Translations under genes and position numbers: made by a program
The notes under the pieces: generated by a model
Databases searched by the model: none
The model's input: only the letters and a program-made list of their open reading frames with translations
Told to the model about the DNA's origin: nothing
Source of the DNA: an uncultured Erysipelotrichaceae bacterium
Lineage (GTDB): Bacteria; Bacillota_I; Bacilli_A; Erysipelotrichales; Erysipelotrichaceae
NCBI GenBank assembly: GCA_947575425.1
Contig: CANPNQ010000006.1
Span: forward strand, 1 to 15,897
Length of the DNA: 15,897 nucleotides
Reading direction: 5' to 3'
In this document: positions 3,915-15,897 of the stretch, piece after piece
Position numbering within the stretch: position 1 is the first letter of the stretch
Layout of the letters: every line of letters begins with the position of its first letter

Positions 3915-4586
3915 ATGGATGTCAAGATATTGGAGATTAAGCAGAGCGTATTTGCGAATAATGATCGCCAGGCAGACGCATTAAGAGAAGAGCTGAAGAA
4001 ACAAGGGGTATATTTGTTAAATGTCATGTCATCTCCGGGGGCGGGAAAGACGACAACATTGGTAAAAACGATCGAGGCATGGAAGGATGAGATCAAGATC
4101 GCTGTGATGGAGGCAGATATTGATTCCGATGTGGATGCGAGAACCATATCTCAAACAGGAGTGAAAGTTATACAGCTTCATACCGGAGGAATGTGTCATC
4201 TGGACGCTTCTATGACAAAACAAGGCTTGGATGGCTTGGGCATGGAAGATGTACAGCTGGTGTTTTTGGAAAATGTCGGCAATTTGGTATGTCCCGCTGA
4301 ATTTGATACAGGGGCGATCAAAAGCATTGCGATTTTGTCAGTACCGGAGGGAGACGATAAGCCATTGAAATATCCGCTGATGTTTCAGGTGTGCGATGTG
4401 GTACTGATCAATAAAACAGATGTGCTTCCTTCCTTTGATTTTGATATGGAACGCTGTGTCCGCCATATCAAAATGCGCAATCCCAAGGCAGAAATTTTCC
4501 CTATCTGTGCAAAAAGTGGGGAAGGGATCGATGCGTGGCTTGCATGGCTGCGCAGAGAAGTGAATGCATGGAAGAGGCATGCTTGA
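3915..4586 (+). CDS. hypB: HypB, nickel-insertion GTPase
   Basis: This 223-residue SIMIBI-class GTPase loads nickel, with HypA, into nickel enzymes, classically [NiFe] hydrogenase. Motifs are the P-loop SSPGAGKTT (39-47), ADIDSDVD (67-74), GGMCHLDA (91-98) with the Cys94-His95 metal pair, ENVGNLVCPAEFD (119-131) with Cys126, and NKTD (166-169) for guanine. The N-terminal CxxCGC nickel site of E. coli HypB and the His-rich tract of some homologues are absent, so only the metal site in the G domain remains. AGGAGG lies 7 bases before the ATG. It is first in a unit with a large Fe-S flavoprotein and hypA. No hydrogenase or hypCDEF gene is in the window, so the nickel client is unknown. Confidence 0.93.
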   Translation: MDVKILEIKQSVFANNDRQADALREELKKQGVYLLNVMSSPGAGKTTTLVKTIEAWKDEIKIAVMEADIDSDVDARTISQTGVKVIQLHTGGMCHLDASMTKQGLDGLGMEDVQLVFLENVGNLVCPAEFDTGAIKSIAILSVPEGDDKPLKYPLMFQVCDVVLINKTDVLPSFDFDMERCVRHIKMRNPKAEIFPICAKSGEGIDAWLAWLRREVNAWKRHA

Positions 4587-4781
4587 TCTTTATCTTAGCA
4601 TAAGCGTGTTTTCATCAACACAAGCAGAGATACGGATATCATTGATCCATACGGAATTTTCTCAATAAAGGAGACACGCCAATCATCCAATGATCACCAA
4701 CATTTGATTCTTGGGAGATAAAAAAAGCACCGCCACATAAGAAAACCGATATAGATACACGCTGGAAAAGGAGATTATCAT
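4587..4781 (+). other. 195-base gap between hypB and the flavoprotein gene
   Basis: I find only a small GTGTT/AACAC hairpin (around 4608-4623) without a U-run. There is no convincing promoter, terminator or open frame with a ribosome binding site. The genes are probably co-transcribed, but the gap is long for an operon. Confidence 0.35.
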
Positions 4782-7556
4782 ATGGAAGAAAAGAAGCGAC
4801 CACGGATCATCGGCGCTGGAGGAATGAGCGCCTATGAATCCCATCCTGCAAAACCAAGAGAAGCGATTATCAAACTGGGGCAAAAGATCACCGATCGTGT
4901 TGGCGTTAAGGTAACAGCGCAGGATCCCGAGTATTATGGATTGGCTGCGATGATCAGTGATGAAATGGCAGAAATTGCTTTAAAGATGAAGCTGCGCACT
5001 CCCTATACCTTACAACAGATGGCGCAAATGTGTGGGCGAAAGGAACAGGAGCTGGAACCGATCTTGTTTCAGATGGGGTATGCCGGGGTTCTGGAATTTG
5101 CGTATACCAAAGATACCCATGAGCGAATGTATGTACTGCCTGTCTTTGTCATGGGCAGTGCGGAGTATTCCAATATGCGCCAAAAGGATTTGGAGGAGCA
5201 TCCGGAAATGGCTTCTTTCTTTGAGCGAATGACTTTTTTGCCATTGGAGAAGATCACTCCGATGGTGCCTGCGGGAGGAAGCGGGATTGGCATGCATGTT
5301 ATCCCGGTGGAAAAAGCGATTCCCAACAATGCGCATTCGGTTGGTATTGAGCATATTTCCCATTGGCTAAAGAAATATGAAGGCAGATATGCGGCATCTC
5401 CTTGTTCCTGTCGTTATGGCAGAAGTGTGCTTGGGGAGGGATGTGGAGACGATCCGGAAGATTGGTGCATTGCGGTCGGAGATATGGCTGATTTTGTGGT
5501 GGAGACAGATCGCGGACATTATGTGGATAAAGAAGAAGTATTGCGTATTTTACAAAAGGCTGAGGACAATGGCTTTGTCCATCAGATTACCAATATGGAT
5601 GGAGAGGATAAGATCATCGCCATCTGTAATTGCAATGTGGAGATATGCAACGCATTGCGAACCTCGCAATTATTCAATACGCCGAATATGAGCCGCTCGG
5701 CGTATCGGGCGCATGTAGATACGAAGCATTGCGTGGCATGCGGCAAGTGTGTGGAGGTATGCCCCGCAGGTGCGGTGAAGCTGGGACAAAAGCTGTGTAC
5801 GAAAAACGGAGCGATTCGCTATCCCCAGCATAAGCTTCCTGATAACAATAAATGGGGACCTGCCATGTGGGATCCCAATTATCGTGATAATAATCGCAAG
5901 AACTGTTATGACACGGGAACTGCACCATGTAAAACTGCTTGTCCGGCACATATTGCGGTACAGGGCTATTTGAAAATGGCGGCACAGGGCAGATATAAAG
6001 ATGCATTGGCTCTGATCAAAAAGGACAATCCATTCCCGGCTATCTGCGGTCGTGTTTGTAACAGGCGCTGTGAGGAAGCTTGTACCAGAGGAACGATCGA
6101 TCAGGCAGTTGCCATTGATGCGGTTAAGAAATTCATCGCCCAACAGGATCTGAATAGCGAAACACGCTATGTCCCTGAAGTGATTCAGCCTTCCATGCGC
6201 GGTCCCTTCCCTCAGAAGATCGCCATCATCGGGGCCGGTCCAGCAGGCTTATCTGCGGCTTATTATTTGGCCTTAAAGGGCTATCATCCCACGGTGTTTG
6301 AAAAGAATGAGAAGCCGGGCGGCATGTTAATGTATGGCATTCCTTCCTATAAGCTGGAAAAGGATGTTATTGAGGCAGAAATCGACATCCTGCGTGAGCT
6401 GGGAATAGAGATCAAATGCGGCATTGAGGTAGGCAAGGATATCACCTTAGAGGAGCTGCGCAAGCAGGGATATCAAGCATTTTATGTGGCGATCGGCTGT
6501 CAGAAGGGAAAATTACCCGGGATTCCCGGAGAGGATGCACAGGGGGTGACCACTGCGCTTAGCTTCCTGCGGGATGCGTTAAGCGAGCAGAGACAAGAGA
6601 TATCCGGCAAGGTCGTTGTGGTCGGCGGCGGCAATGTGGCTATCGATGCATCGAGGGTGGCGCATCGCTTGCATGCGGCACAGGTGGATATGGTCTGCTT
6701 GGAGGCAGAAGATGAAATGCCGGCCTCCAAAGAGGAAATCAAAGAGGCAAGAGAAGAACAGGTAGCGATTCACTGCGGCTGGGGAGTGAAAGAAATCTTA
6801 TGTGAAAACGGTAAGGTTAAGGGAATCGTATGCAAGAAATGCACCTCTGTTTATGACAGCGAGCATCGCTTCGCACCGCAATATGAAGAAAACGAAACAA
6901 GGACGATCGACTGCGATATGGTAATTTTCAGTATCGGACAAGCGATCGAATATGGCGATCTGTTAAAGGGCAGTCAGGTCACCTTCGGCAGAGGCAATGC
7001 GCCGATCGCCGATTCGCTGACCTATCAAAGCGCGCAAAGCGATATCTTTGTCGGCGGCGATGTATACAGCGGTCCGAAATTCGCGATTGATGCGATAGCG
7101 GCAGGCAGAGAGGGTGCGGAGTCACTGCATCGTTTTGTGCATGAAAATGCCAGCTTGACGATCGGCAGAAACCGCCGTGATTTTATCGAATTGGATAAAG
7201 AAAACATCATCTTGGAAAGCTATGACCATGCCCCACGTCAGGAGGCGGGCATGGAGGATATCGATGTGGCTCATTCCTTTGCGGATGCGCATAAGACACT
7301 CAGCGAAGAACAGGTAAGGATCGAAACTGCACGCTGTCTTGGCTGCGGTGCTTCCATTGTGGATCTTAATAAATGCATCGGTTGTGGCTTATGCACCACC
7401 AAGTGTGAATTTGATGCGATCCACTTACAAAGAGATCTGCCGGAATGCTCAAAGATGGTTATCAGCGAGGATAAGATGAAGCACATTCTCCCCTATGCGG
7501 CAAAGCGCGGGCTGAAGATCATGTTTAAGAAAAAGCCGCAAAGCAAGGTGGAATAA
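4782..7556 (+). CDS. GltD-like NAD(P)H:FAD oxidoreductase fused to several Fe-S domains
   Basis: This 924-residue cytoplasmic redox protein is organised as follows. A possible winged helix spans about 50-110. An Fe-S region holds CSC (208-210), Cys221, Cys229 and CNCNVEIC (282-289). A ferredoxin motif CVACGKCVEVC occupies 317-327. A GltD-type Fe-S helical domain has Cys383, 387, 422, 426, 430 and 434. An FAD Rossmann motif IGAGPAGLSAA lies at 483-493 and an NAD(P)H Rossmann motif VVVGGGNVAIDASR at 612-625. The FAD-closing block GGD...KFAIDAIAAGREGA follows at 758-779. A C-terminal cluster has Cys852/855 and CIGCGLCTTKC (865-875). The core matches the small subunit of glutamate synthase and NfnB-like proteins, but at about 460 residues those are half as long. 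No GltB partner is nearby. AAGGAG lies 8 bases before the ATG, and the stop overlaps the hypA start. The electron partner is unknown; a nickel enzyme or hydrogenase is only inferred. Confidence 0.85.
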   Translation: MEEKKRPRIIGAGGMSAYESHPAKPREAIIKLGQKITDRVGVKVTAQDPEYYGLAAMISDEMAEIALKMKLRTPYTLQQMAQMCGRKEQELEPILFQMGYAGVLEFAYTKDTHERMYVLPVFVMGSAEYSNMRQKDLEEHPEMASFFERMTFLPLEKITPMVPAGGSGIGMHVIPVEKAIPNNAHSVGIEHISHWLKKYEGRYAASPCSCRYGRSVLGEGCGDDPEDWCIAVGDMADFVVETDRGHYVDKEEVLRILQKAEDNGFVHQITNMDGEDKIIAICNCNVEICNALRTSQLFNTPNMSRSAYRAHVDTKHCVACGKCVEVCPAGAVKLGQKLCTKNGAIRYPQHKLPDNNKWGPAMWDPNYRDNNRKNCYDTGTAPCKTACPAHIAVQGYLKMAAQGRYKDALALIKKDNPFPAICGRVCNRRCEEACTRGTIDQAVAIDAVKKFIAQQDLNSETRYVPEVIQPSMRGPFPQKIAIIGAGPAGLSAAYYLALKGYHPTVFEKNEKPGGMLMYGIPSYKLEKDVIEAEIDILRELGIEIKCGIEVGKDITLEELRKQGYQAFYVAIGCQKGKLPGIPGEDAQGVTTALSFLRDALSEQRQEISGKVVVVGGGNVAIDASRVAHRLHAAQVDMVCLEAEDEMPASKEEIKEAREEQVAIHCGWGVKEILCENGKVKGIVCKKCTSVYDSEHRFAPQYEENETRTIDCDMVIFSIGQAIEYGDLLKGSQVTFGRGNAPIADSLTYQSAQSDIFVGGDVYSGPKFAIDAIAAGREGAESLHRFVHENASLTIGRNRRDFIELDKENIILESYDHAPRQEAGMEDIDVAHSFADAHKTLSEEQVRIETARCLGCGASIVDLNKCIGCGLCTTKCEFDAIHLQRDLPECSKMVISEDKMKHILPYAAKRGLKIMFKKKPQSKVE

Positions 7557-7912
7557 TGCACGAGCTGGGAATAATCGTACAGATTTCAAAGACCTTGGAG
7601 GATGTCGCACAGGAAAACCATCTGGAAAAGATCGGCTCTGTGACCTTAGAGATTGGTGAGGTAAGCGGCATCGTTTCCGATTATTTTGATGATTGTTGGA
7701 AATTCTATTGTAAGAAAACACCGCTGTTGGAAGGGGCTAAGCTTCATGTGATAGCCATTTCTGCCATCACGCATTGTACGCACTGTCAAAAGGACTATGA
7801 GACGGTACGCTATGGTAAAATATGTCCTCATTGTCAAAGTGATCAAACGTATTTGATTCAAGGCAATGAAATCAATATCAAGGAGATTGAAGCGTATGGA
7901 GCATCCTGCTAA
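7556..7912 (+). CDS. hypA: HypA, nickel metallochaperone
   Basis: This 118-residue protein begins with the obligatory MHE nickel site (Met1, His2, Glu3) and has the HypA zinc finger, Cys74-x2-Cys77 and Cys90-x2-Cys93. HypA receives nickel and passes it, with HypB, to apo-enzymes; in some bacteria the pair also serves urease. The ATG overlaps the upstream stop as TAATG, and AGGTGG lies just before it inside the flavoprotein gene, so translation is probably coupled. It is the last gene of the unit; a strong terminator follows 54 bases later. Length and motifs are normal for the family, and the protein looks functional. Confidence 0.92.
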   Translation: MHELGIIVQISKTLEDVAQENHLEKIGSVTLEIGEVSGIVSDYFDDCWKFYCKKTPLLEGAKLHVIAISAITHCTHCQKDYETVRYGKICPHCQSDQTYLIQGNEINIKEIEAYGASC

Positions 7913-12291: not shown

Positions 12292-15200
12292 TTATTCATA
12301 ATAATCTTCCATCCTATTATCTGTCCAGAGTTCACACTGAGTCATGACGGTCTGTACCGCATCCTCCATACCTTCTGGTGGATACTTGTGTTTTTTCAAA
12401 AGTTTTTTGATTAACATACGCATTTTTGCTCTTGCGGATTCACGCTTTTGCCAATCGATCGTCTTATTCTTACGGAGAGTATCTGTGAGTTCTTTTGAGA
12501 TGGCGATCAGTTCGTCATTCTCATAAAAATCTTTGATTGCTTGCGGCTTTGTTAGAGCGTCATAGAAGGCAAGTTCATCATCAGTAAGTCCAAGTTTATC
12601 ACCTTCTTGCTGTGCTATGGCGATTTGCTTGGCTAATTTCAGCATTTCTTCAATGACTTCTTCATTGGTAAGCATACCATTGAGATACGCATTAAGAGAA
12701 CGCCGCATAATCTCACTAAACTTCTCTGATTTAACAACATTTGTCCTTCGATAAATGGATACCTGCTCCGCAATCAATTTTTTTAAAAGTTCGACGGCAA
12801 GGTTCTTTTCCTCCATATTAGCTATTTCCTGAAGGAATTTAGGGTCAAAAAGAGAGAATTTTTCTTTTATATCTGAAAAAAGATTGATAACGCCATCGCT
12901 CTTGATACTCTGCTTCAAAAACTCGTTAATTCTTGCATTTAATTCTTGCAAGGAAATTTTCTCTCTACCACCTGATGTTGTTAGTCTGAGTACCAGTACA
13001 CGTATGGATTCAAAGAACGCTGCTTCAAATCGACTATCCTCATCAACCATTGATGAACAGAGGGATAAAGCCTGATGGAGTATAAGAGCTTCTTTTACAA
13101 ACGATTCTTTCTCATCTATTTTCTCTCTGCCAATAATAAAGTTGACTGCACCGCTGATTGTTTTTGCTCTTTCAAGATCTGTGCCATTTCGAAAATTAGA
13201 GTAATCATAGCCATAGAGTTTATCACGGCAAACAGACAGCTTCTCCAAGAATTTAGGATAAGCAACCTTGGTAACATCCGTATCGCCGTAGTTTGACTTA
13301 TCACGATCAGTATAGTGATTCATCGCTTGCTTTAAGGCGGTGGCAATCCCCACATAGTCAACGATAAGTCCGCCTTCCTTATCTCTGAACACACGGTTTA
13401 CTCTGGCGATGGCTTGCATAAGGTTATGTCCCCACATAGGTTTGTAAATATACATTGTGGCAAGAGAAGGTACATCAAATCCAGTAAGCCACATATCAAC
13501 AACAATAGCGATTTTCAAAGAACTGCTATTATCCTTGAATTTTTTTGCAAGATCTTCCTTTTGATGCTTGTTGCCGATAATCTGTCGCCATTCTTCCGGA
13601 TCATTATTGCTGGAGGTCATAACGACAGCTATCTTTTCTACCCAAGCAGGGCGGAGTTCTAAAATTCGCTTGTATATTTTCATAGCGATAGGGCGAGAGT
13701 ATGCAACAATCATTGCCTTTCCGGTTAACAAATTTTCACGATGATTTTCGTAATGATCAATGATATCACAAACCAGAGAACTAATTGTATTGTCATTTCC
13801 GAGAACAGCTTCCATTTGTCCAAGTTCATGTTTGCTCTTTTCAATGACTTCCGCGTCGGCTTTTGCGGACATACTGTCATATTCAGCATCTATCAGCTTT
13901 AAAGTTGCTTCATCAAGATTAAGCTGAATGACACGACTTTCATAGTAAACAGGACGTGTAGCACCATCGTTGACAGCTTGTGTCATATCGTAAATGTCTA
14001 TATAATTTCCGAATACTTCTCGGGTGTCACGATCCTTAGCGTGTATGGGTGTCCCTGTAAAGCCGATGTATGTAGCATTCGGTAAGGTATTGCGGATCAT
14101 GCGGGCTGTGCCTACAACACGCTTGGCAATTTCCTCACCTTCTTCATTCTTTGTTATTTTTATTTTCTCGGTAAGTCCGTATTGACCTCTGTGTGCTTCA
14201 TCCGCCATAACAATGATATTGCGGCGTGTGGAGAGTGGTTCGTGAGACTCTACAAATTTCTGCATTGTGGTAAAGATAATACCGTTTGCTTGTCTGCCAG
14301 CAAGTAGAGTTTTTAAGTGTTCGCGATTTTCTGCGTGCATAGGGTCTTGTCTTAAAAAATCCTTACATTTTGCAAACTGTCCATAGAGTTGATCGTCAAG
14401 GTCGTTTCTGTCAGTCACTACCACGATTGTCGGACTGTCTAAGGTTTCCTGCAATAAATGTGCATAGAACACCATAGAAAGCGACTTTCCGCTTCCTTGC
14501 GTATGCCAAAATACACCGCCTTTACCATCAGTGAGAGTTGCATGTTTTGTAGATTCAATCGCCTTTCTTACCGCAAAATATTGGTGGTAACCTGCAAGTA
14601 TTTTAAAAGAGTGAATACCTTCGTTAGAAAAGCAAATAAAGTTTTTAATAATATCCAGCAGTCTTTCTTTCTGGAGCATGCCCTTAAAGAAAGTGTCAAA
14701 CTGGGCATATTGTGTGTTTTCATAGTTGCCATCCTTTGTTTTCCATTCCATAAAACGATCTTCACCGGAGGTGATTGTCCCTGCTTTGGAAACTCCCATA
14801 TCGCTTATAACACAGATAGCATTATAAATAAACATTGAAGGAATTTCCATCATATAGTTACGGAGCTGCCTGTATGCTTCGGAAGCGTCTGTTTCTTCAC
14901 GGGAAGGAGATTTCAACTCAATGAGTACAACAGGCAAGCCGTTTAAAAAGAGAATCACATCAGGGCGCTTGTTGCTTTTCTCAATGAAAGTCCATTGATT
15001 GGCAACAATAAAGGAGTTGTTGACAGGATTTTTATAGTCAACAAGATAAACGATAGAGGAATGCTCCTCATTGCCGATAAAATATCTTACGGGTACACCG
15101 TTTTGCAAATAATCCATAAAGAGTGCGTTTTTCTGCACAAGTTCACCGTTTTCAAAGCTTTTTAACTTGAATAAGGCATCTTGAATAGCGACATCAGGCA

Positions 15201-15366
15201 ATCCTCTGTTTAAACGATATAGTGATTCATACAATACCTCCTCATATAAAGGACAGTAAAAATTCCTTTCAATATCAGGACCGTATATGTATTCATATTC
15301 TAAATCGTTTCTAAATAACTCGATTACAGAGTTTTCATAATTGGCTTCAGTATAATTTGCACTCAT
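12292..15366 (-). CDS. hsdR: Type I restriction enzyme, HsdR (motor and nuclease) subunit
   Basis: A 1024-residue R subunit that, bound to HsdM2S, translocates and cuts unmodified DNA. The N-terminal PD-(D/E)xK nuclease has RPDV (Asp136) and ELK (Glu150, Lys152). The SF2 helicase motor shows TQGSGKS (289-295), DEAH (389-392), TGTP (437-440) and, further on, the WLTGFDVPSL and QAIARVNRVF motifs V and VI. The C-terminal helical tail holds DWQKRESARAKMRM (from 971) and KYPPEGMEDAVQ. The length fits the EcoR124-like class. I start at the ATG at 15364-15366 (MSANYTEANYENS), one base after the upstream stop. A longer frame to 15408 begins with TTG and adds 14 unrelated residues overlapping the neighbour. 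The region is more A+T-rich than the genes to its left. HsdM and HsdS are not in the window. Confidence 0.95.
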   Translation of the reverse strand: MSANYTEANYENSVIELFRNDLEYEYIYGPDIERNFYCPLYEEVLYESLYRLNRGLPDVAIQDALFKLKSFENGELVQKNALFMDYLQNGVPVRYFIGNEEHSSIVYLVDYKNPVNNSFIVANQWTFIEKSNKRPDVILFLNGLPVVLIELKSPSREETDASEAYRQLRNYMMEIPSMFIYNAICVISDMGVSKAGTITSGEDRFMEWKTKDGNYENTQYAQFDTFFKGMLQKERLLDIIKNFICFSNEGIHSFKILAGYHQYFAVRKAIESTKHATLTDGKGGVFWHTQGSGKSLSMVFYAHLLQETLDSPTIVVVTDRNDLDDQLYGQFAKCKDFLRQDPMHAENREHLKTLLAGRQANGIIFTTMQKFVESHEPLSTRRNIIVMADEAHRGQYGLTEKIKITKNEEGEEIAKRVVGTARMIRNTLPNATYIGFTGTPIHAKDRDTREVFGNYIDIYDMTQAVNDGATRPVYYESRVIQLNLDEATLKLIDAEYDSMSAKADAEVIEKSKHELGQMEAVLGNDNTISSLVCDIIDHYENHRENLLTGKAMIVAYSRPIAMKIYKRILELRPAWVEKIAVVMTSSNNDPEEWRQIIGNKHQKEDLAKKFKDNSSSLKIAIVVDMWLTGFDVPSLATMYIYKPMWGHNLMQAIARVNRVFRDKEGGLIVDYVGIATALKQAMNHYTDRDKSNYGDTDVTKVAYPKFLEKLSVCRDKLYGYDYSNFRNGTDLERAKTISGAVNFIIGREKIDEKESFVKEALILHQALSLCSSMVDEDSRFEAAFFESIRVLVLRLTTSGGREKISLQELNARINEFLKQSIKSDGVINLFSDIKEKFSLFDPKFLQEIANMEEKNLAVELLKKLIAEQVSIYRRTNVVKSEKFSEIMRRSLNAYLNGMLTNEEVIEEMLKLAKQIAIAQQEGDKLGLTDDELAFYDALTKPQAIKDFYENDELIAISKELTDTLRKNKTIDWQKRESARAKMRMLIKKLLKKHKYPPEGMEDAVQTVMTQCELWTDNRMEDYYE

Positions 15367-15367
15367 T

Positions 15368-15897
15368 TTAATCACTACTTTCTGAATTTGATAAAATATG
15401 TTCATCAACTGCTTGATTTATCAAATCAATGATTTGCGTTGCTTTTGCTTTAGCATCATTTTTATTGTTGCCCAAAGTAAGATAATATTCTGTGATAGAC
15501 ATGCGCATTTTACTTAGTATATTATCTCGTCTGTACCAATCAATAGAAAAACTATTATTCAATATGTTTGAAACATCTTTAATATCATTAGTATTTACGA
15601 CGTCTTTTAATATTTCATGTAAATTATCGATAATAAAACTATTGAGTTCGCTTTCGTCCAAATAAATTTTTGTGACATTAGGCGTAATTTCTCCAACATA
15701 CTTAGTAAAATCGGCCACAGCTCTGACCTGATTACGGTTAGCATATTTTATGTAACTTAATTGGTGTTCAAGTTCAGGAAACAAGGTTGCTTCATTTATA
15801 TTGTATAAATCTAATTCTTTAAGAATTGCTTCTTTATTTTCACCATTTACGTAGAAATAAGATTCACTAAAATCACTTTTTAGTTTTCCTTTAGACT
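15368..15897 (-). CDS. FRG-domain protein with HsdR-like C-terminal tail, 5' end cut by window edge
   Basis: The last 175 residues of a longer protein are visible, open to the right edge; the internal TTG near 15784 is not the true start. Visible residues 20-50 (KEAILKELDLYNI, then NEATLFPELE and YIK) match the typical end of the FRG domain. That domain is found in many proteins of defence loci and has an unsettled activity. After a linker, residues 105-165 resemble the tail of the adjacent HsdR: DWYRRDNILSKMRM against DWQKRESARAKMRM, then an A-x-Q in register. The stop and the hsdR start are separated by one base, so the two are translationally coupled. The sequence is very A+T-rich. FRG is assigned from its C-terminal end only; the N-terminal W-x-FRG motif lies outside the window. 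Confidence 0.65.
   Translation of the reverse strand, partial: SKGKLKSDFSESYFYVNGENKEAILKELDLYNINEATLFPELEHQLSYIKYANRNQVRAVADFTKYVGEITPNVTKIYLDESELNSFIIDNLHEILKDVVNTNDIKDVSNILNNSFSIDWYRRDNILSKMRMSITEYYLTLGNNKNDAKAKATQIIDLINQAVDEHILSNSESSD

Follow-up and report, generated by a model that had tools for sequence, protein, structure and literature searches.

An FRG-family protein in a type I restriction operon shares a C-terminal tail with HsdR

We analyzed a window of 15,897 nucleotides, the whole of contig CANPNQ010000006.1 (C6) in the 292-contig, 66.5% complete genome of an uncultured Erysipelotrichaceae bacterium (GCA_947575425.1), and found that the FRG-family protein encoded at its right edge has a C-terminal tail that, judged by sequence comparison, is almost certainly homologous to the C-terminal stretch of HsdR, the type I restriction endonuclease/motor subunit encoded just downstream. 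With the same near certainty, the FRG gene is a resident of a type I operon, for which relatives show the order hsdM-hsdS-FRG-hsdR. It is a candidate defense effector (PADLOC PDC-S15), probably anti-phage, and the best overall explanation, which we hold with slightly better than even confidence, is that FRG is an effector embedded in the restriction operon and bears an HsdR-like tethering tail.

The window holds the C-terminal 175 codons and stop of the FRG gene (15368..15895, minus strand); the 5' end is open at the contig edge, which cuts inside the gene, and the contig lacks the N-terminal half, and with it the FRG domain. The first-pass annotation, made from the sequence alone, had named an FRG protein upstream of hsdR. 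The identity stands, as the fragment matches the PADLOC PDC-S15 model PDLC04927 (E = 7.5e-50, profile positions 250-417 of 422) and is classed as PDC-S15 accordingly, but what the window encodes is only 175 amino acids without the FRG domain. The fragment is 40% identical to the full-length L002 protein, and the FRG domain family PF08867 is found in full-length relatives (for example, L002, E = 1.9e-16). The window's genome at its present completeness gave no PF08867 match, the domain proper being off the contig, and a full-length FRG relative searched against it found the C6 edge as its sole match.

Within the window, the two proteins share a 16-residue motif, DWYRRDNILSKMRMSI in the FRG tail (15494..15541, minus strand) and DWQKRESARAKMRMLI in the HsdR tail (12409..12456, minus strand), with 8 of 16 residues identical, just as the first-pass annotation had aligned them and where it had placed them. 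The D and W of this motif are invariant in the 42 rows of FRG alignment A2 and in the 30 rows of HsdR alignment A3; L016, which is outside A2, has SW where the A2 rows have DW. Compared alone by BLASTP, the window FRG and HsdR match with E = 3e-4 across 27 residues. The top Pfam family of the FRG fragment is T1RH-like_C (PF11867), in which residues 106-137 (15485..15580, minus strand) match profile positions 270-301 of 329 (E = 0.0026, 17.7 bits versus a cut-off of 26.8); the HsdR region of this family spans 12319..13272, minus strand (E = 1e-91, profile 11-328 of 329). However, the unrelated PF02886 scores E = 0.0035 on the fragment in the same scan, so the single PF11867 match is not decisive. 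A pair this short, under the Pfam cut-off and nearly equaled by an unrelated family, is what chance similarity between two short charged helices could yield, but we give that explanation a negligible probability, since it is rejected by profile comparisons in both directions and by hhalign against shuffles, and is further opposed by the PADLOC cross-matches and by relatives above the PF11867 cut-off.

The similarity is significant in profile-profile comparison, where its absence would have spoken against the first-pass annotation: hhalign of 51 FRG tails with 32 whole HsdR proteins gave Prob 93, E = 3.5e-7 and a score of 54.3 in the register of the first-pass annotation. By contrast, 100 column shuffles reached no more than 23.2 and the reversed control 18.7. 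A second alignment pair gave E = 3.7e-6. When a hidden Markov model (HMM) of 32 HsdR tails was run over 538 frames, its matches outside HsdR were confined to 11 frames of FRG (E ≤ 0.0012), which represent 9 distinct genes including the window FRG, and the reversed set gave no match at E ≤ 1. It detects just 8 of the 38 FRG frames in L004-L040, a low reach that we attribute to the diversity of FRG tails. Conversely, an HMM of 51 FRG tails found outside FRG only HsdR, in 32 rows, 31 of which have a matching stretch at E ≤ 1.1e-4 and one of which (L033) is found by its whole-protein score alone. Because 17.7 bits is below the cut-off, we call the window FRG homologous by profile comparison rather than a Pfam member; among relatives, 6 of 8 scanned exceed the cut-off, the eight having been picked from the listing as six annotated with PF11867 and two without.

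Annotation resources contain the same relationship. In PADLOC, two models of FRG, PDLC04934 (E = 1.1e-10) and PDLC04927 (E = 1.6e-5), match the window HsdR, and one model of HsdR matches the FRG fragment (E = 3.8e-4). PDLC04934 itself contains the tail: HsdR frames align to it with their ends, from positions 280-335 through 407-410, and FRG cores align within 36-217; in practice, this model cross-matches ordinary HsdR via the tail. A protein search with the tail only gave 121 matches, and 73 of the 120 listed carry PF11867 by precomputed annotation counted by eye, compared with 1 of 120 listed relatives nearer the L002 protein. Among the tail-only matches listed, PF08867, PF11867 or no family was present and nothing else. 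The FRG plus PF11867 architecture is thus already visible in Pfam-based annotation.

The FRG core ends (15761..15895, minus strand, by alignments A1 and A2) with a conserved LFPELEHQ motif, and the tailless proteins L032, L033, L035, L036, L037 and L038 end 6 to 25 residues past it. In the window, the region beyond the motif (15371..15760, minus strand) comprises a linker and four predicted helices, as read from the model of relative L018 (pLDDT 87.5), which has a weak linker at 322-328 and helices at 330-348, 354-365, 376-394 and 397-424. A difference in fold, which would have spoken against the first-pass annotation, was looked for by helix order alone; in both the FRG and HsdR models, the DW directly precedes the middle helix of the last three, so that its placement agrees.

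Mapping the genomic surroundings of FRG relatives, we found that the tail goes together with hsdR. A contig scan with an FRG alignment, using peptide patterns that lie in the core and outside the tail, gave 37 loci, 29 of which are tailed, and hsdR lies downstream on the same strand in all 29. The interval between FRG and hsdR is free of frames of at least 120 amino acids in 24 of the 29; hsdS lies upstream in 21, adjoining FRG in 18 of these; seven other tailed loci begin at a contig edge, and in L017 hsdS is more distant. Five of the eight tailless loci (L032, L033, L035, L036, L037) are also between hsdS and hsdR, and L034, L038 and L040 are elsewhere. The first-pass annotation had proposed a survey of FRG genes beside hsdR for the same tail, and relatives in that position do carry it. 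In a combined count of 63 FRG loci, the sequence retrieved includes hsdR at 28 of 28 tailed versus 5 of 35 tailless loci, although L041-L069 have flanks of at most about 1.5 kb and a more distant hsdR would escape the count of tailless loci. The 63 comprise the contig scan, an independent FRG draw from 392 genomes of the phylum (8 of 38 matches left out as loci) and one plasmid copy, and omit L007 (FRG split in two frames), L062, L070 and the duplicates L057 and L058; L052 is counted as tailless, with no tail by HMM or tblastn, and L036 has its hsdR by tblastn (59.8% identical).

In the window, hsdR encodes 1024 amino acids (12292..15366, minus strand) from ATG 15366, its most likely start, while an alternative longer frame starts at TTG 15408. 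HSDR_N, SWI2_SNF2, T1R_D3-like and T1RH-like_C all exceed their Pfam cut-offs, and the protein matches TIGR00348 hsdR with E = 4.6e-176; with nuclease, motor and C-terminal domains it qualifies as the HsdR of a type I restriction-modification system. The first-pass annotation had relied on HsdM and HsdS genes lying beyond the right edge, and such genes exist in the same genome: contig C33 (7994 bases) has hsdM, whose product is 86% identical to L018 HsdM, and the start of hsdS at the contig end, where it is broken inside the gene. The joined hsdM-hsdS-FRG-hsdR operon is seen in relatives only and the genome's HsdM and HsdS are on a separate broken contig; most naturally, C33 and C6 would be the two sides of one unassembled gap.

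In a tree of 50 FRG cores, leaving out 13 further divergent rows, the tailed proteins group together by a single change (support 92/84, with 94% of 200 bootstrap trees). Next to them, the FRG genes that lie in hsd operons but have no tail, five in number, form a group of their own (support 100/99), and the two groups join at just 81/65. It is therefore parsimonious that FRG entered the hsd operon first and gained the tail once later. Since tailed FRG proteins span Bacillota, Bacteroidota, Spirochaetota and Melainabacteria, the tail must be old. Recent copying from the cognate hsdR was considered and is not claimed, because cognate tail pairs are just slightly more similar than others (P = 0.03 by permutation over 27 loci, relatedness uncorrected). 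The tail is under purifying selection, with dN/dS of 0.11-0.45 in 7 pairs (one saturated in dS), and changes faster than the core (0.05-0.09 in 6 computable pairs). Judging from the tree, an FRG protein that was already part of an hsd operon most likely acquired the tail and retained it, the donor probably being an HsdR-type R subunit.

For function, we propose that FRG is an effector embedded in the type I operon; its last ~70-100 residues are a helical module homologous to the HsdR end. The FRG core, a candidate for an ADP-ribosyltransferase-like fold, would when switched on probably consume NAD+ or modify a target. FRG, tethered by its tail to the type I enzyme, would be kept latent and would fire once the enzyme is blocked or engaged, like PrrC with EcoprrI. 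Because the tail is common with HsdR and the HsdR C-terminal domain has a proposed role in EcoR124I, tethering to the type I enzyme is the most plausible function, to which we give somewhat more than even weight. For EcoR124I, that domain is proposed to contact the methylase and to serve in assembly, and it is involved in the activities of the enzyme (PMC5248579). The leading narrower version, docking of the tail on HsdM/HsdS at the site used by HsdR itself, is tentative, falling short of an even chance. We are rather doubtful of the fuller scheme in which HsdR and FRG share a docking tail, compete for or co-occupy one place on HsdM2S, with a single DNA-recognition core driving either DNA cleavage or an effector of abortive infection. 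That FRG may be interchangeable with HsdR is an attractive hypothesis.

Several results limit this proposal. A profile of HsdR C-terminal regions found no EcoR124I chain at E ≤ 1, and the best match of the window HsdR to EcoR124I is at residues 110-450, so position, rather than sequence, is what carries the assembly role over. Across 18 operons, a partial Mantel test gave no association of the tail with either HsdM or HsdR once the core was accounted for, a weak test because tail distances are near saturation. None of the 29 tailed loci has FRG without HsdR, which speaks against interchangeability, as do the five tailless FRG genes in the hsdS-hsdR slot and the failure of tail divergence to follow HsdM beyond the core; that slot also holds other cargo (L104, L111). 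Given the EcoR124I mismatch, the null Mantel test and the other slot occupants, we keep the docking claim modest.

The same slot occupants suggest that FRG could be a passenger, an independent defense gene in a cargo slot between hsdS and hsdR whose tail is an hsdR 3' end duplicated by its insertion or by a later recombination and now has a local role such as folding or dimerization. In agreement with this, DarTG2 is among other cargo reported for the gap in the accessible text of PMC12255303, the FRG-less L104 and L111 hold other proteins there and have no tail match in their genomes, five FRG genes sit in the slot tailless, and the FRG tail does not co-vary with HsdM. We nevertheless consider this explanation unlikely, as purifying selection keeps the tail across all four lineages named above and 0 of 28 tailed FRG genes are away from hsdR. 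Alternatively, the tail might pair FRG with HsdR itself, by like-to-like packing of tails and not through HsdM/HsdS, in which case FRG would sense the state of the motor. HsdR is downstream in all 29 tailed loci, and the window hsdR starts one base after the FRG stop, a spacing that favors joint translation; however, the FRG tail lacks co-variation with HsdR beyond the core, we know of no example of like-to-like tail pairing that can be cited, and we regard this pairing as improbable. The shared module could also bind DNA, bringing FRG to the DNA held by the type I enzyme. Basic residues common to both proteins lie in the helix after DW and the C-terminal domain of EcoR124 HsdR reportedly binds DNA, but the window HsdR end has no sequence match to EcoR124I, and we hold a DNA-binding module to be highly improbable. 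Tethering to the type I enzyme remains our preferred function for the tail.

If docking holds, type I methylase cores would be modular platforms for effectors besides the nuclease. The HsdR-related tail offers a concrete, removable handle on how embedded effectors sense the state of a restriction enzyme and suggests which surface FRG binds.

Other occupants of the hsdS-hsdR slot were seen across relatives. An AAA_21 ATPase and a small second protein lie between FRG and hsdR in L012 (13075-14878) and L023 (11261-12960), the small partner being DUF4276 in L023 and without a Pfam match in L012. The FRG-less L104 (10427-11092) and L111 (5540-7322), with related HsdR, have gap proteins without Pfam or PADLOC match, and tail profile A4 gave no tail match in these genomes. 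Operons of L004, L008, L009, L018, L025, L027, L028, L030 and L037 carry a gene for a recombinase together with additional hsdS pieces, one inverted in several, as expected of phase-variable specificity.

Run over the 392 genomes, profile A4 found HsdR-sized frames, FRG frames (G000, G060, G336) and shorter frames, matches near 1000 amino acids being assigned to HsdR by size. Nine shorter frames were checked for the tail on other effectors (L076, L081, L094, L095, L096, L098, L099 and L100 by tblastn, and G301:C36 by translation), and all match HsdR or resemble its end; G406:C3, G365, G011, G196, G334, G364:C2, G237, G099 and G101 were left out of this check. A lone 62-residue HsdR end in L101 (G061:C3, about 79802-79993), 66% identical to the window HsdR and without an HsdR frame found around it, is probably a remnant. 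In L030 (11155-14721), a 1188-residue HsdR continues past the tail into a C-terminus that by eye resembles an S24/LexA-type peptidase.

FRG relatives also occur on plasmids, in 289 records, none covering 80% of the query; the 30 plasmid matches listed end at query residue 301, the core end, and two plasmid FRG neighborhoods inspected have no gene annotated hsd. A P2-like phage (L138, Peduovirus P22H1, 320-1684) has a core-only FRG match near one genome end. In L038 (2936-8633), the tailless FRG gene follows one that has a MukB-like match, possibly a Wadjet-like operon. The 9.5-kb contig of L034 has, besides a divergent FRG frame, a second FRG gene piece (1760-2035, residues 37-128, 58-64% identical) close to the tailed group; neither tail nor hsdR was found on this contig, and an hsdS match is present. 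Elsewhere in the window, a 924-residue glutamate-synthase-like oxidoreductase lies by eye between HypB-like and HypA-like genes (3915-7912).

Effectors embedded in restriction operons are already known, and the HsdR-type tail of FRG is the apparently undescribed part, as we found no description of it on FRG proteins in the literature searched, which excludes preprints and most subscription papers. PDC-S15 (PADLOC-DB v2) models match both the window fragment and its relatives, whereas PDC systems are described, in the text accessible, as uncharacterized guilt-by-embedding candidates with no mention of an HsdR tail. T1RH-like_C (PF11867) covers the C-terminal region of HindI-like R subunits, and the FRG tail matches its last ~70 positions; in the FRG proteins scanned, in contrast, matches begin at profile position 251 or later and leave the earlier part of the family unmatched. 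DarT is an ADP-ribosyltransferase. DarTG2 occupies the same hsdS-hsdR slot as FRG but is a two-gene toxin-antitoxin pair, and no HsdR-like tail is mentioned for it in the accessible text (PMC12255303). PrrC of EcoprrI is an anticodon nuclease encoded in a type IC operon and held latent by the enzyme (PMC3874165, PMC12707154, as far as their accessible text goes). It resembles FRG in having its gene inside an hsd operon, and its latency is the model that we propose for FRG, although it is another type of effector and the same text mentions no tail shared with HsdR. Together, PrrC and DarTG2 indicate that hsd operons host abortive effectors.
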